Below are positions 166 through 5,833 of a stretch of DNA of 64,000 bases, one piece after another. Every line of letters begins with the position of its first letter. The first letter of the stretch is position 1. The notes below the pieces were generated by a model. The model saw only the letters and a list, made by a program, of their open reading frames with translations. It ran no database searches and was not told the DNA's origin. Position numbers and translations under genes: made by a program. The DNA lies in the NCBI RefSeq assembly GCF_016899855.1, contig NZ_JACJJG010000007.1, forward strand, positions 1 through 64,000. Reading direction: 5' to 3'. Origin of the DNA: Marseilla massiliensis. Its GTDB lineage: Bacteria > Bacteroidota > Bacteroidia > Bacteroidales > Bacteroidaceae.

Positions 166-768
166 TCAGTTCAATCCGAACAATGCCTTCAAGCCTCCGT
201 CGACACCTGAAAAGCCCATGAAAGCAAGACTCAAAAGACCTGCCGTGACAAGAACTATCGCCATGCCGCGCATACCTTTAGGAATACTTACCATGGCAAG
301 CTGCTCACGTATACCTGCAAAAATAATCAATGCGACGGCAAAACCTACCGCTGTTGAAAAAGCATACACGACGCTCTGTATTAACGAATACTCCTTCTGG
401 ATAACAAGAATCGCAACGCCCAATACGGCACAGTTGGTGGTAATCAGCGGAAGATATATGCCTAATGCCTGGTAAAGCGACGGCGAAACTTTCTTCAATA
501 TAATCTCCACCATCTGCACCAAAGCGGCAATGACAAGAATGAACGCTATAGTTTGAAGATACTGCAGCCCCATAGGGTTGAGCACATATATCTGCACAAG
601 GTAGGTCACTATTGTTGAAAGTGTCAGCACAAACGCTACTGCCGCTCCCATACCGAGCGACGTCGATATCTTTTGCGAAACTCCAAGGAACGGGCAAATA
701 CCGAGGAATTGTGACAACACGATGTTGTTCACGAATATCGCCGAGATGAAAATCAATAAATACTCCAT
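166..768 (-). CDS. rnfA: Rnf complex subunit RnfA
   Basis: Integral membrane subunit of the ion-translocating ferredoxin:NAD+ oxidoreductase. The 200-residue protein has about six hydrophobic segments and begins with the family hallmark around residues 10-30 (FVNNIVLSQFLGICPFLGVS), including the conserved Cys of the RnfA/RnfE pair thought to hold a membrane-embedded iron-sulfur centre. Length is normal for RnfA/RsxA. It is the last gene of rnfBCDGEA, 3 nt after rnfE, and is followed by a hairpin. RnfA and RnfE are homologous inverted-topology partners. The alternative name RsxA applies where the complex reduces SoxR, but the gene order here is that of the respiratory Rnf of Bacteroidetes. Confidence 0.95.
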   Translation of the reverse strand: MEYLLIFISAIFVNNIVLSQFLGICPFLGVSQKISTSLGMGAAVAFVLTLSTIVTYLVQIYVLNPMGLQYLQTIAFILVIAALVQMVEIILKKVSPSLYQALGIYLPLITTNCAVLGVAILVIQKEYSLIQSVVYAFSTAVGFAVALIIFAGIREQLAMVSIPKGMRGMAIVLVTAGLLSLAFMGFSGVDGGLKALFGLN

Positions 769-771
769 ATA

Positions 772-1356
772 TTACGCCTTCTTAAATCTATTAACTATCG
801 CTATCAAAAATCCGAGAGTGATAAACGCTCCTGGAGGTAGAATAAAGAGAAGCATGTTGGCCGTCTCTGGTAAAAGCACCATGCCGAATATTGAACCGGC
901 ACCAAGCAGTTCGCGAACGGCACCGAGCAGTGTCAACGCAATACTGAAGCCAAGACCTATTCCGATACCGTCAAAAAGGCTCTCTATCGGCCCATGGCTG
1001 CACGCGAACGCCTCGGCTCGTCCGAGAATGATACAATTGACCACGATAAGCGGTATATAAAGGCCAAGTGTTGCATAAATTGCCGGTACATATGCCTGCA
1101 TAAGCATTTGCAGTATCGTGACAAACGATGCTATGACCACAACAAACACGGGTATTCGCACCATGTCCGGAGTCAAGTTCTTTATCAAGGATATTACCAG
1201 GTTGGAGCATATAAGCACGAACATGGTAGCCAGTCCCATAGACATCCCGTTCATGGCTGATGTCGTTGTAGCCAGCGTAGGACACATTCCGAGGAGAAGT
1301 ACAAACGTAGGATTCTCCTTTACAATGCCGTTGATTAATATTTTAATATAATTCAT
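772..1356 (-). CDS. rnfE: Rnf complex subunit RnfE
   Basis: Membrane subunit of the Rnf complex, paralogous to RnfA (same NQR2/RnfD-independent six-helix fold family). The 194-residue protein carries the conserved LLGMCPTLATTTSAMNG region near residues 21-37, with the Cys that pairs with that of RnfA. It is also similar to NqrD of the sodium-pumping NADH:quinone reductase, but the operon with ferredoxin-type RnfB and RnfC makes Rnf the right assignment. It lies between rnfG (15 nt upstream) and rnfA (3 nt downstream). Confidence 0.94.
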   Translation of the reverse strand: MNYIKILINGIVKENPTFVLLLGMCPTLATTTSAMNGMSMGLATMFVLICSNLVISLIKNLTPDMVRIPVFVVVIASFVTILQMLMQAYVPAIYATLGLYIPLIVVNCIILGRAEAFACSHGPIESLFDGIGIGLGFSIALTLLGAVRELLGAGSIFGMVLLPETANMLLFILPPGAFITLGFLIAIVNRFKKA

Positions 1357-1371
1357 GATAACATCTGTTTT

Positions 1372-1995
1372 TTAATTATTGTGTTTCCCCGTAGCTCCTG
1401 TATGTGCGTCAACAGGCAGCGACTTATAAGCCTGGTAGGCTTGGTTGACCGCCAACAGGAAAGCTCTGCTCGTTATTGTTGAAGCCGTTATCGCATCAAC
1501 CGTGCCTCCGTCTTTTGACACGGTGAGATTGTCAGTTGCCGGATGTTTCCCTACAATACATCCTTTACCATCTTTCTGGAACCACTTATCGGCTTTTGCG
1601 CCAAGTCCTGGAGTTTCTGAATGCTGGAGAATAGTATATCCCAAAATCTTGCCTTCGTTATCGAAACCGACCAATACCTTCAAGTCTCCACCAAAACCTC
1701 CAGATGTACTTTCAACAGCCGCACCTAAAGGCTGCTTGTCAGGTCCAACGGTTTCGTGTATAACGAAAAGCATTTCCTTACCCGCCACGTTTTGCCTTAC
1801 GGTATCATCTTTCGCAACGGTCAGTTCCACACCACCCATAACAGACTTTATGCCATCGGCAAGAGCCTTTTGCGCCTGCTGTCTTATGGGCGCTTCCGTC
1901 ACATGGTTTACATAAGCCAGGATTCCGCCCGTTATCAAAGCTACACCTACCAGAACAACAACCATGTTCGTTATCGTTGATTCAAGTTTCTTCAT
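1372..1995 (-). CDS. rnfG: Rnf complex subunit RnfG (covalent FMN protein)
   Basis: Electron-transfer subunit with one N-terminal membrane anchor (about residues 10-28) and an FMN-binding domain outside the cytoplasm. The flavinylation motif is seen as DAITAST at residues 167-173, so Thr173 is the likely FMN-phosphoester site. A second motif-like DAHTGAT occurs at 196-202 near the C terminus, which is unusual and could be a second site or chance. The start codon overlaps the rnfD stop (ATGA), indicating translational coupling. Attachment would require the flavin transferase ApbE, which is not in this window. Confidence 0.93.
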   Translation of the reverse strand: MKKLESTITNMVVVLVGVALITGGILAYVNHVTEAPIRQQAQKALADGIKSVMGGVELTVAKDDTVRQNVAGKEMLFVIHETVGPDKQPLGAAVESTSGGFGGDLKVLVGFDNEGKILGYTILQHSETPGLGAKADKWFQKDGKGCIVGKHPATDNLTVSKDGGTVDAITASTITSRAFLLAVNQAYQAYKSLPVDAHTGATGKHNN

Positions 1996-3002
1996 TTTCC
2001 ACCCTCCTTGTTTACTGTTTCACCAAAACGCTTGGGTTTCACATACGTGTTAATCAGCGGTGTAAACGCATTCATGATAAGAATAGCGAAAGACATACCT
2101 TCTGGATACGCTCCCCAATTTCTTATAACAACGGTAAGAAAACCTATTGCGACGCCATATATTATCTGACCTTTATGCGTCATCGGTGAAGTCACATAAT
2201 CTGTTGCCATAAAAATGGCGCCAAGCATAAGTCCACCACTAAGCAATGTAGCAACTGGATTGGCGTAAACAGGGTTTGCAAGATGCAGCAACCCACTGAA
2301 GACAAACACCGTGGCAAGTATGCTTACAGGGATATGCCAGGTTATTATTTTCTTCCATAACATATACGCCAAGCCTATAAGGAGCGCTAAAGCACACACT
2401 TCGCCTATCGCTCCCGCACCGTTGTTTAAACCTGGATCACCAAGTAAAAGCGACAAAGAGTCAGGAAGCTTATCGAGAACAGACGCATCTCCGCTCTTTA
2501 TTGCGGCTTTCATTATACTTAACGGTGTTGCCCCTGTCTGTGCGTCTACGTAAGACGCAACCTGTCCGGCTATCGGCCAAGAAGTCATCTGTACAGGGAA
2601 TGATGCTAAAAGAAAACAACGTCCGACCAACGCAGGATTAAACGGATTGCATCCCAAGCCTCCGAAAGTCATCTTTCCCACGCCAATTGCGACTAAGGCT
2701 CCTATTATAACAATCCACACAGGAATATTTGAAGGTAGATTGAAACCAAGAAGCAATCCCGTCAATATAGCTGAACCGTCAGTAATCGTAGGCTGGCGCT
2801 TAAGCATATATTTGGTTATCGCCCATTCAAAGAATACACAAGCTGCAACGCTCGATGCGCAGACTATAGCCGAACCGACGCCAAAATACAGGAACGACAC
2901 AAGCAATGCCGGCACCAAGGCTATAATTACACCGTACATATTGCGCTCAACACTATCCGTGCCATGCGCATGCGGCGACAATGATACTATCAGTTTATTC
3001 AT
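1992..3002 (-). CDS. rnfD: Rnf complex subunit RnfD
   Basis: Large membrane subunit (336 residues, NQR2/RnfD family) of the Rnf pump with about nine to ten hydrophobic segments. The conserved start SPHAHGTDSVERNMYGV is present, and the covalent FMN motif is DAQTGAT at residues 153-159 with Thr159 as the likely acceptor. GCNPFNPALVGR near residue 117 is also typical. It sits 33 nt after rnfC and overlaps rnfG by 4 nt. The family is paralogous to NqrB; the Rnf context decides the name. Confidence 0.94.
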   Translation of the reverse strand: MNKLIVSLSPHAHGTDSVERNMYGVIIALVPALLVSFLYFGVGSAIVCASSVAACVFFEWAITKYMLKRQPTITDGSAILTGLLLGFNLPSNIPVWIVIIGALVAIGVGKMTFGGLGCNPFNPALVGRCFLLASFPVQMTSWPIAGQVASYVDAQTGATPLSIMKAAIKSGDASVLDKLPDSLSLLLGDPGLNNGAGAIGEVCALALLIGLAYMLWKKIITWHIPVSILATVFVFSGLLHLANPVYANPVATLLSGGLMLGAIFMATDYVTSPMTHKGQIIYGVAIGFLTVVIRNWGAYPEGMSFAILIMNAFTPLINTYVKPKRFGETVNKEGGK

Positions 3003-3035: not shown

Positions 3036-4388
3036 TTATTTTTTCGCGTTACGCGCCTTAATCAAGCCCATAACGGTACTCTTGCCAAAACGTATGTTAT
3101 CAAGCATTGGCCTATGGGCAGGACAAGTAAACTGGCATGAACCACATTCGATACACGACGTAACTCCTGCCGCCTCAACTTTTTCCCAATCATGCAACGC
3201 ACTTGCAGTTGCCAACAAATAAGGTTCCAGTCCCATAGGGCATGCGCTTACGCACTTGGCACAACGTATACACGGTTGTGCAGGCTTACGCTTTGCTTCA
3301 TCACCGCTCAAAATAGTTACACTATTGGTTCCCTTACAAATAGGAACCTCGACTGAAGTCAGCGCCTTGCCCATCATAGGGCCACCAGCCAACAACTTAT
3401 TGTCGCCCTCCGGCATTCCGCCGCATTCATTGATTAAGTCTATCATGGGAGTACCCATGCGTACGAGAAAGTTTGCCGGGTGGGCAAGTTTCTTGCCAGT
3501 TACGGTTGTGTAACGCTCAAACAACGGTTTGTTTTTCATTACTGCCTGATATACAGCATACGCCGTTCCAACGTTCTGTACAACAGCCCCTACATTGACG
3601 GGGATGGCAGGCGGAGCCGGTACTTGACGGCGTATCACTGCGTCAACAAGCTGCTTTTCGCCACCTTGAGGATATTTCTTTGCCAATGGAACAATCTCAA
3701 CATTGGGATTATCTTTGGTCTTCTCCTCAAAAAGCCGTATCGCGGCAGGCTTGTTTTCCTCAATACCGATATATCCTTTGTTTACCTTTACCGCTTTCAT
3801 CAGCAGGTCTAAGCCAACAAGGATTTCGTCTGCATGTTCCATCATGAGCCTATAATCCGAAGTGATGTAAGGCTCACACTCTACACCGTTCAATATAACA
3901 CACTCGGCCTTGGCTGTAGGCGGAGGGCACAACTTTATAAATGTGGGGAAGCCTGCGCCGCCCATACCGGTGACTCCGGCTTTCTTCACACGCTCAATTA
4001 TTTCCTCTGGTGTAAGTTCTGGATGGGCGTCCAAAGTCTCAAGTTTATCCGAGCGGTCAATACTTTCCTCCCACTCGTCACCCTCAACCTTAACAATTAT
4101 CACCGGCTTACGGTATCCAGTCGCGTCGATGGCTTCATCTATCTTCATAACTGTGCCCGAAACCGACGAATATACAGGTGCAGAAACAAATCCTCCAGCC
4201 TCTGCCAACAAGGTTCCGACTTTTACCTTATCGCCTTTCTTAACTACAGGTTTTGCAGGCGCTCCAATATGTTGAGAAAGCGGAAATATTGCCTGCTGTG
4301 GAAGCTTTGCCACCTGAGTAACCGACTCAGAAGACAATTTATTTTCCTCTGGATGTACTCCGCCTATTCTAAAAGTTCTGAGTTTCAT
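3036..4388 (-). CDS. rnfC: Rnf complex subunit RnfC
   Basis: Peripheral NADH-side subunit of Rnf (450 residues). It contains an N-terminal biotinyl-like barrel, a flavin and NADH binding Rossmann-type region with GMGGAGFP at 141-148 and GGEK at 242-245, a SLBB region, and two [4Fe-4S] motifs with Cys at 373/376/379/383 and 412/415/418/422. Length is close to the compact RnfC of anaerobes rather than the extended E. coli form. Its start overlaps the rnfB stop by 4 nt (ATGA). Confidence 0.95.
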   Translation of the reverse strand: MKLRTFRIGGVHPEENKLSSESVTQVAKLPQQAIFPLSQHIGAPAKPVVKKGDKVKVGTLLAEAGGFVSAPVYSSVSGTVMKIDEAIDATGYRKPVIIVKVEGDEWEESIDRSDKLETLDAHPELTPEEIIERVKKAGVTGMGGAGFPTFIKLCPPPTAKAECVILNGVECEPYITSDYRLMMEHADEILVGLDLLMKAVKVNKGYIGIEENKPAAIRLFEEKTKDNPNVEIVPLAKKYPQGGEKQLVDAVIRRQVPAPPAIPVNVGAVVQNVGTAYAVYQAVMKNKPLFERYTTVTGKKLAHPANFLVRMGTPMIDLINECGGMPEGDNKLLAGGPMMGKALTSVEVPICKGTNSVTILSGDEAKRKPAQPCIRCAKCVSACPMGLEPYLLATASALHDWEKVEAAGVTSCIECGSCQFTCPAHRPMLDNIRFGKSTVMGLIKARNAKK

Positions 4389-5284
4389 GCTTTTACCTCC
4401 TCTTGTTTGAGTTCTACGTCATCTTTCTCCACGTCACTTACAACGGGTTTGGCCTTCGGCGCGGGAAAATTAATGGCCACGATGGCATGTGTAGGACAGA
4501 CCTCAACGCACTTTCTGCACAAACGACACTTGTCGGGGTCAATATATGAAAGATTGCCCTGTATTGTTATTGCACCGAAATTACATTCTTTCTCACACTT
4601 TCCGCAACCTATACAAGCGGCTTTACATGCCTTCATCGCTGCGGCCCCCTTGTCTTTATTGACGCAACGTACATAAACACGGCGGTTCTTCACGCCCCGC
4701 TTACGCAATTCGATAATATGGCGAGGACAAGAATTCACACATGCACCGCAGGCCGTGCACTTATCTTCATCAACCTCTGGCAATCCTGTTTCATCATTAA
4801 TCTTGATTGCTCCGAACGAACATGCGCTGACACAATCACCACAGCCGAGACATCCATACCCACATCCAGTTTCGCCGGCTCCGCATGAATTCATAGCCGT
4901 ACATGTACGCAACCCGCTGTATTCAGCTATACGTGGACGTAATTCACACGTCCCGTTACAGCGGACAACGGCAACTTTAGGCTCGGTATTGGCTACCGCC
5001 ATACCCAATAAATCGGCAACCTGCCCCATCACCTCAGCTCCTCCAACCGGACAGTAAAGCCCATCGAGCGAACCGGCATCGGCACCTTTGACCAAGGCTG
5101 AAGCCATACCCGAACATCCGGGATAGCCGCAACCGCCGCAATTGGCACCAGGCAACAATGCCGTCACCTGTCCCAAGCGAGGGTCTTCATACACAGCAAA
5201 CTTCTTGGAACAAACATATAGCACCACAGCCGACACCAGCGCAATGCCTCCAAGAACAGCCACTGCAATCAAAATAAAGTTCAT
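4385..5284 (-). CDS. rnfB: Rnf complex subunit RnfB, polyferredoxin
   Basis: Ferredoxin-accepting subunit of Rnf. One N-terminal membrane helix (about residues 3-25) is followed by the characteristic Fe-S domain with Cys49, Cys52, Cys57 and Cys78, then four ferredoxin-type Cys clusters around residues 145-155, 176-186, 224-234 and 253-263. E. coli RnfB has fewer clusters; the extended form is common in anaerobes. The C-terminal 30 residues are charged and lack motifs. It is the first rnf gene, 60 nt after the rseC-like gene, and overlaps rnfC. Confidence 0.95.
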   Translation of the reverse strand: MNFILIAVAVLGGIALVSAVVLYVCSKKFAVYEDPRLGQVTALLPGANCGGCGYPGCSGMASALVKGADAGSLDGLYCPVGGAEVMGQVADLLGMAVANTEPKVAVVRCNGTCELRPRIAEYSGLRTCTAMNSCGAGETGCGYGCLGCGDCVSACSFGAIKINDETGLPEVDEDKCTACGACVNSCPRHIIELRKRGVKNRRVYVRCVNKDKGAAAMKACKAACIGCGKCEKECNFGAITIQGNLSYIDPDKCRLCRKCVEVCPTHAIVAINFPAPKAKPVVSDVEKDDVELKQEEVKA

Positions 5285-5344: not shown

Positions 5345-5770
5345 TTATTCACGCTCGACGCGGAACGACAAACGAGCACGGATTTTATCACGGCACATAT
5401 ATATAATAAAGTAATATGGCACCAACGAGCCAAGACTTGCCAATGCCGCATTGACTTCATTGCCCGTCAACGACATCACGGCAAACAACACCACAACCAA
5501 CAAGAATAACGGAACGACAGAACTAAGCAATACGGCAAAAAGCCCTGAATTCTGTGAGGCTATGACTACAACCTCATCACCAACTCTATAGTCATGGCCA
5601 TCGCATTTACCGACGTCAATAATCTTTTCTTTACTTTCTGACGCATTACAATGTCCTGCAACCTTGCATGAAGCACACGCTGAAGTCTGGATGATTCGCA
5701 CCTTTATGCAGTCATCCGTTATTTCGTCAATTATACCTTGATGTTTAATATTCGCACTTATGTTGTTCAT
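5345..5770 (-). CDS. rseC: RseC/MucC-like membrane protein (SoxR-reducing system type)
   Basis: A 141-residue protein of the RseC_MucC family. It has a Cys-rich N-terminal part (Cys21, Cys32, Cys35, Cys41), a small beta-rich region, and two hydrophobic helices at about residues 70-115. A longer reading frame extends upstream, but the ATG at 5770 starts where family similarity begins and lies downstream of a promoter, so it is preferred. RseC-like genes commonly precede rnfB in Bacteroidetes and probably support Rnf assembly or cofactor chemistry (inference from context). Confidence 0.85.
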   Translation of the reverse strand: MNNISANIKHQGIIDEITDDCIKVRIIQTSACASCKVAGHCNASESKEKIIDVGKCDGHDYRVGDEVVVIASQNSGLFAVLLSSVVPLFLLVVVLFAVMSLTGNEVNAALASLGSLVPYYFIIYMCRDKIRARLSFRVERE

Positions 5771-5776
5771 GATGGT

Positions 5777-5798
5777 TTTGCAAACTCGAGTTTGCAAA
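5777..5798. promoter_or_regulatory. Perfect 22-bp palindrome, candidate operator of the rseC-rnf operon
   Basis: The 22 bases form a perfect palindrome with half-site TTTGCAAACTC. It lies between the minus-strand -7 box (5801-5808) and the ATG at 5770, so it covers the expected transcription start. A symmetric site in that position is typical of a repressor operator. The regulator is not known from the sequence. Confidence 0.5.
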
Positions 5799-5800
5799 TG

Positions 5801-5833
5801 CAAAGGTAATATTATATTTTCAAAGTAAGCAAG
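5801..5833 (-). promoter_or_regulatory. Promoter of rseC-rnfBCDGEA
   Basis: Minus-strand -7 box TACCTTTG (5801-5808) fits the Bacteroidetes consensus TAnnTTTG. A CTTG at 5830-5833 gives a -33 element at 21-nt spacing, one base off TTTG. Confidence 0.5.

Follow-up and report, generated by a model that had tools for sequence, protein, structure and literature searches.

A conserved palindrome at the rnf start as the probable operator of a Bacteroidales fermentation and energy regulon, with an AAA_14-winged-helix ATPase as its candidate regulator

A perfect 22-bp palindrome at the start of the rseC-rnfBCDGEA operon of Marseilla massiliensis is, in our judgement, probably the rnf operator of a Bacteroidales-wide fermentation and energy regulon that would be run by a self-regulating AAA_14-winged-helix protein. 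The operator and the regulon of Bacteroidales fermentation and energy genes, in bacteria of the gut and rumen, are well supported by the comparison of sequences between genomes, and we infer from such comparison that the regulator is the AAA_14 ATPase. The result names an operator, a regulon over much of the glucose-to-propionate pathway and one candidate regulator gene. In Prevotella glucose-to-propionate fermentation, Rnf balances ferredoxin and NAD (PMC10542786). Searches of the open-licence literature returned no account of how Bacteroidales set Rnf expression and no description of an rnf operator or of AAA_14/DUF4143 regulators, in keeping with the remark of the first-pass annotation that no Rnf operator of this sequence was known to have been described in Bacteroidales.

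The palindrome (TTTGCAAACTCGAGTTTGCAAA; Table 1) is the only perfect one of 22 bp in the window, by which we mean the whole 64,000-nucleotide stretch that was analysed, where 0.018 would be expected from the base composition; a second copy with up to 3 mismatches was not found in the window (0 expected from 100 shuffles). On the minus strand, TACCTTTG is followed by CA, the palindrome, ACCATC and the ATG of rseC. The palindrome lies exactly at the coordinates given in the first-pass annotation, which had placed it 3' of the -7 box and 5' of the rseC start codon. TACCTTTG is presumably a -7 box of the Bacteroidetes type, and the rnf transcription start is placed, provisionally, from the position of this box. 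Profile searches confirmed rseC, rnfB and rnfC as well as the domains of rnfD, rnfG, rnfE and rnfA. In two motif models that were both built with the rnf palindrome among their sites, it scored 23.8 bits (R1) and 23.6 bits (R2). That the palindrome arose by chance is scarcely credible, given the expected number above and the conservation across families described below, which together refute it.

Table 1. Features at the rnf start of Marseilla massiliensis (positions in the window).
Feature	Position	Strand	Basis
Perfect palindromic operator (putative), 22 bp, TTTGCAAACTCGAGTTTGCAAA	5777..5798	.	Top-scoring site of own genome
-7 promoter box (presumed), TACCTTTG (TAnnTTTG)	5801..5808	-	Sequence; TAnnTTTG-operator layout also in relatives
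rseC (RseC_MucC), first gene of the operon	5345..5770	-	PF04246, 99 bits
rnfB	4385..5284	-	NF005504, 473.6 bits (cut-off 437); TIGR01944, 99.4 bits (cut-off 68.7)
rnfC	3036..4388	-	TIGR01945, 524.6 bits (cut-off 245.95)
rnfD	1992..3002	-	PF03116, 391.7 bits
rnfG	1372..1995	-	PF04205 (FMN_bind), 74.8 bits; gene order
rnfE	772..1356	-	PF02508, 225.7 bits; gene order
rnfA	166..768	-	PF02508, 206.6 bits; gene order

Upstream regions of rseC in relatives carry a degenerate palindrome at the same position, the consensus of these forms across Bacteroidales being WTTGYnAWSTSNASWTnRCAAW. We scored the sites with a PWM trained on Prevotella-type rseC sites and on the ATPase-gene sites of the genus. A site over PWM 12 was present at rseC in 32 of 50 genus upstreams and absent from the other 18 (these upstreams overlap the training set and are the best RseC matches, with no random draw, among 52 genus loci of which L019 and L123 were left out as too short), and 1 of 500 shuffled upstreams reached the same score. 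Among the named loci L075-L114, which mostly belong to other genera and lie outside the training set, 20 of 33 passed, including loci of Bacteroides, Phocaeicola, Parabacteroides, Massilibacteroides and Coprobacter; one Bacteroides locus (L094) and one Phocaeicola locus (L112) failed at rseC. The motif is also kept at rseC in Prevotella, and many Prevotella rseC upstreams hold no trace of the palindrome. In several Bacteroides the rseC site reads TTTGTAATGTNNASTTTGCAAA and lies immediately 5' of the ATG, and the succession of TAnnTTTG and then the operator recurs at rseC in relatives. What is not kept is the perfect symmetry, the sites of relatives being imperfect palindromes. The first-pass annotation would have been refuted by a lack of conservation at rseC in close relatives; the comparison made here did not refute it. 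A second conserved motif, GCAAACGWTTRCG, was observed in 26 of the 50 genus upstreams, some tens of bases 5' of the rseC -7 box, more commonly where the palindrome is absent (14 of 18, versus 12 of 32 with it). This motif looks LacI/PurR-like by eye (examples in L007, L010, L014 and L021) and also adjoins the nhaD sites of L148 and L154.

Further copies, which the first-pass annotation had suggested looking for, were found in degenerate form at many other genes. Searched for WTTGYAAASTSSASTTTRCAAW with up to 3 mismatches allowed, 8 close genomes yielded 40 palindromic matches (8 at rseC and 32 elsewhere), and the reversed control pattern yielded 9. Within the own genome by itself, TTTGCAAA-N6-TTTGCAAA with 2 mismatches was no more frequent than its control (6 versus 10), and the regulon emerged only with a motif learned from relatives. 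For the genome-wide scans, model R1 was made from rseC sites only and R2 from all kinds of sites, and they were run over 14 and 18 genomes, respectively, some of which had supplied sites to the models; the best 150 candidates per genome were scored, so the site lists are lower bounds. The degenerate motif lies upstream of pckA, pta, pgk, gapA, fba, ppdK, mdh, nhaD and others. Neighbours of sites that exceeded curated profile cut-offs were pckA, phosphotransacetylase, class II aldolase, GAPDH and phosphoglycerate kinase (Pfam), as well as methylmalonyl-CoA epimerase, rubrerythrin, NhaD, a DASS sodium symporter, MetA and uracil phosphoribosyltransferase; the mdh-like neighbour exceeded the cut-offs for malate/lactate dehydrogenase domains, and a pyruvate phosphate dikinase (truncated where its locus ends), a FabI-like and a GltD-like neighbour fell below theirs. 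In the own genome, the other sites that we read lie at the AAA_14 ATPase gene (C255), pckA/upp (C61) and pgk (C266), with a weak site at a gene that resembles phosphate butyryltransferase by eye (C26) and one with no clear target (C277). Matches within genes (L174, L201, L216) are probably due to chance.

The first-pass annotation pointed to a dedicated repressor or redox regulator of Rnf, and of this proposal the conserved operator of a protein-binding type at the rnf start stands. A repressor dedicated to Rnf would suit the perfect symmetry of the site and its position at the rnf start, but the motif occurs at many other genes of the same genomes, and this regulon refutes such a repressor, leaving it very improbable. 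The obvious choice for a redox regulator would be Rex, which responds to NADH and represses genes of central carbon and energy metabolism. The content of our regulon (mdh, gapA, pta, pckA, rnf) does resemble that of Rex regulons, with targets in glycolysis, fermentation, malate dehydrogenase and rnf-type electron transport and with palindromic operators over promoters, and the Rex N-domain was detected in the control genome of Bacteroides ihuae. However, none of the 398 genus genomes has a Rex gene over the PF06971 cut-off (5 sub-threshold matches, 21.0-25.2 bits), though the motif is well kept there, the half-site spacing and the motif itself appear to differ from the Rex consensus, and our candidate has an ATP-binding domain and not an NAD-binding one. 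That the site is an operator of Rex, the NADH/NAD+ repressor, is accordingly most unlikely and is refuted for the genus, and the redox part of the first-pass proposal is not supported here, our best candidate being an ATP-binding protein and not a known redox sensor. We also rejected Cur (BT4338), the CRP-family regulator of Bacteroides, as the regulator on account of motif mismatch. Cur shares with the present system a 22-bp palindromic operator and a link to carbon metabolism, but its published motif is wwwTATGTTnTAnAACATAwww and its described targets are mainly genes for the use of sugars (PMC3878776), and its TATGTT-N4-AACATA core is absent from the rnf-operator motif when the two are compared by eye. 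The main text of the BtModulome study mentions neither rnf nor rex nor pckA (PMC12596196).

The most consistent of the additional sites is that in the promoter of a gene coding for an AAA_14 ATPase. All 30 best-matching genus loci carried a site in the promoter of this gene (PWM 16.3-30.8), 27 of these 22-mers having been in the PWM training set. Order-level loci, which were chosen by protein and not by motif and contributed no sites to training, gave the same picture for orthologs (at least 54% identity), of which 18 of 19 scored over PWM 12 and the 19th scored 10.0; the site was over PWM 12 in 2 of 4 intermediate homologs (43-48%), G487 and G523 being without a good own-promoter site, and in 0 of 6 more distant ones. 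Five loci fetched for their motif (L186, L192, L194, L195, L199) were left out of these counts. The site overlaps the -33 box of the ATPase gene, its right half-site TTTG lying about 19 nt before TAnnTTTG. Between the site and TAnnTT[TC]G there are 15-16 nt at each of the 30 genus loci and 14-17 nt at each of the 19 order-level orthologs. Because it overlaps the -33 box and lies 5' of the -7 box, the site at the ATPase gene is not transcribed from its promoter. This arrangement decides against an RNA hairpin in the 5' untranslated region as the functional element: the rnf transcript would carry the site at its 5' end, with halves able to pair, but the site precedes the -7 box at the ATPase gene and at several others. 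With so many sites upstream of -7, we rejected the hairpin, which we regard as a highly improbable account of the palindrome. In several genomes (e.g., L001:243-1322, minus strand), a conserved hypothetical protein without a Pfam match at 1e-5 is encoded divergently from the AAA_14 gene, and the two have the intergenic operator in common.

We then compared the distribution of the gene with that of the site. A match to the ATPase gene at E<=1e-40, which in some genomes is to a paralog only, was present in 352 of 398 genus genomes and in 171 of the 176 of good quality. The order-level test was made on genomes at least 92% complete, 88 of 101 with an RseC match being used (our own genome and 12 with weak RseC matches were left out): an ortholog was accompanied by the rseC site in 9 of 16 genomes and an intermediate homolog in 1 of 4, and none of the 68 genomes with neither had the site (Fisher 3e-8, a value that overstates independence, as the ortholog-bearing genomes probably share ancestry); 7 of the 16 ortholog genomes had no rseC site over PWM 12. 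Three genus genomes of 98-99% completeness (G084, G168, G149) have no match to the ATPase gene at E<=1e-40; they retain rseC and its -7 box without the palindrome and gave 0 model matches genome-wide at E<=2, versus 9-21 strand matches, drawn from the best 150 candidates per genome, in 5 gene-bearing genus genomes. By their near-identical rseC upstreams, these three look like one lineage and, together with the probable shared ancestry of the bearers, this means that the co-occurrence counts few independent events. Two more genus genomes of good quality likewise lack a match to the gene. Four further genomes of good quality (G310, G347, G357 and G375, the last 99% complete in one contig) have only paralog-level matches to the ATPase gene. 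A counter-case is G019 (91% complete), which has paralog-level matches only (best 9.1e-63), yet carries an rseC site of PWM 23.4. Among less complete MAGs (56-88%) without a gene match, 6 of 8 keep the rseC site over PWM 12, which missing sequence could explain.

The faithful site at the ATPase gene can be read in another way, namely that the operator and regulon are the same and that what binds there is a different conserved Bacteroidales factor, of the winged-helix or CRP type, the AAA_14 ATPase being only its most conserved target. A regulon member may conserve its site no less faithfully than a gene that regulates itself, the GYAAA-N6-TTTRC geometry would suit several helix-turn-helix families, and G019 keeps the rseC site without a detected ortholog. 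Nevertheless, no other conserved transcription factor was recognised among the site-adjacent genes, in so far as these neighbours were identified, the three genomes G084, G168 and G149 without the gene are also without model matches, and in one genome (G488) the ATPase promoter was the only place matched genome-wide at E<=2 among the best 150 candidates. We consider such a factor unlikely, if by no means negligible, and what weighs most against it comes from distant relatives of the ATPase.

DNA binding by AAA_14 proteins at their own promoters would predict palindromes of similar build at their paralogs. A TTG-N14-CAA palindrome with 5 or more of the 7 inner positions paired was found upstream of 12 of 60 distant paralogs (a fetched subset of those listed), compared with a mean of 0.15 and a maximum of 2 in 300 shuffles. 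When the spacing was varied from N8 to N22, N14 gave 12 palindromes, N13 gave 3, N8 and N16 gave 1 each and the others none. The frame was absent from all 77 rseC upstreams without a known site (88 order-level upstreams minus 11 with a site or its remnant). Upstreams of 866 other ORFs contained 12 matches that are the known motif and, in the remaining 854, 2 others, one of which is at the G523 ATPase gene (12/60 versus 2/854, Fisher p=1.7e-13), and a general palindrome score likewise favoured the paralogs over the controls (Mann-Whitney p=7.6e-6). The TTG-N14-CAA frame is exactly that of the rnf operator, and the inner bases vary from paralog to paralog, a pattern that a single unrelated factor would leave unexplained. 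In our view, no other single observation argues as strongly as this shared frame for the ATPase itself as the binding protein. Canonical DUF4143 loci of the phylum had the frame in 0 of 18 cases (12 of 30 loci were dropped as no P-loop ORF was found). Canonical DUF4143 genes of other Bacteroidota (L464, L465, L466, L467, L468, L472) were observed to carry palindromes (8-11 of 11 pairs) some 9-15 nt 5' of the start codon; that of L467, for example, includes GATTCGGAATTGAATTCCGAATC, and their frame differs from that of the rnf operator. Upstream of an AAA_14 paralog on a viral contig (L494; IMGVR_UViG_3300026484_000420), TTGTCCTGTATATAAGACAA lies 11 nt before the start, with 5 of 7 inner pairs.

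The candidate regulator is a protein of 395 residues with an AAA_14 domain (PF13173, 88.8 bits; cut-off 27), a DUF4143 match below the cut-off (22.5 bits; cut-off 28.1) and a match to PDC-S01 of PADLOC (83.8 bits), and it contains a winged helix-turn-helix at about residues 238-287. The segment spanning residues 215-305 exceeded the Pfam cut-off for HTH_11 and/or HTH_5 in 3 of 10 proteins (3 of 7 orthologs, 0 of 2 intermediate homologs and 0 of 1 distant one) and fell below it in the others. Within the recognition helix, all 54 orthologs, the five loci fetched for their motif included, have the same residues R268, A269, T270 and N273, which vary among 10 other homologs (4 intermediate and 6 distant). 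The Walker A motif is intact (G-x-R-G-x-GKT) in 54 of 54 orthologs; by alignment column, the acidic partner of Walker B, Glu, is replaced by Gln in 54 of 54, and a count by regular expression found the Glu kept in 8 of 10 distant paralogs. A C-terminal E-h-G-G-K motif is absent from 58 of 58 members of the core clade and present in 9 of 10 paralogs (6 distant and 4 from viral contigs), and the split between core clade and paralogs has 100/100 support in a 32-row tree. PDC-S01 is said to fuse the ATPase to a PD-(D/E)XK domain (PMC12988326), and we infer that the E-h-G-G-K motif may be the nuclease core of this domain. The candidate would, by these changes, be a catalytically eroded and domesticated regulator. 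It shares the AAA_14 domain and the PDC-S01 match with the AAA_14/DUF4143 ATPases, which PADLOC places in the candidate defence family PDC-S01; unlike them, it is a conserved core gene of the genus with Gln at Walker B and no E-h-G-G-K motif, and its link here is to a regulon of metabolic genes and not to phage defence.

An AAA+ domain followed by a winged helix is also the build of DNA-binding proteins of the Orc1/Cdc6 type. Foldseek, run with a poor model of a viral-contig paralog, matched 2qby (E 2.2e-5) at a TM-score of only 0.31, many other AAA+ chains being equal or better; the likeness rests on fold, and we saw no relation at the sequence level. The model is poor in the helix-turn-helix region (10-residue means of about 37-57 pLDDT), and for this we rejected the fold of this paralog as evidence. 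Sequence searches of the PDB returned only weak P-loop and unrelated matches. Judged by listings, the literature gave no functional study of DUF4143 or COG1373. A transposon screen in B. thetaiotaomicron for resistance to injected toxins had the predicted AAA+ ATPase BT_RS24785 among its strongest hits, and one of the toxins needs Rnf in its target (PMC12718326).

If the AAA_14 protein is the regulator, we picture its mode of action as follows. A dimer, or another symmetric oligomer, of the AAA_14-winged-helix protein would hold the palindrome, repressing its own promoter from the site over the -33 box and repressing rnf from the site over the presumed +1 or start region; at some genes, e.g., pckA and the fabI-like gene, activation would be possible from a site further upstream. 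Because Walker A is kept, Gln stands in for the Walker B Glu and the C-terminal nuclease-like motif is lost, we propose that the protein, when bound to ATP, may act as a switch that governs steps linked to ATP and sodium (pgk, pckA, pta, ppdK, rnf, nhaD). ATP/ADP as the signal is speculative, and is put forward since many targets are ATP-yielding and sodium-linked steps of succinate-propionate-acetate fermentation. A broader proposal, which we hold tentatively, is that AAA_14/DUF4143 ATPases may be self-regulating DNA-binding switches with family-specific palindromic operators, the Bacteroidales one being a core, hydrolysis-poor, nuclease-dead ATP sensor that sets the genes for substrate-level phosphorylation, Rnf and the sodium cycle. 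Should the AAA_14 protein be the regulator, a large family of thousands of members annotated as unknown or as defence would gain a function, and the palindromes would allow targets to be predicted for each member.

Several further occurrences of the motif were observed. A 233-aa protein (MxYSxEVxxMCVVxKGPNHGPAPIPEEGKW) is linked to the motif at L443:1682-2380 and L196:653-1351, the L443 copy having no NCBIfam match at 1e-20 and no Pfam match at 1e-5. At L450 and L452 the motif lies 5' of a GltD-like NAD(P)-binding gene, which could belong to glutamate synthase or to an Nfn-type electron-bifurcating enzyme. In three genomes (L175, L213, L456), a copy lies directly 3' of the stop codon of a gene that is groEL-like by eye.
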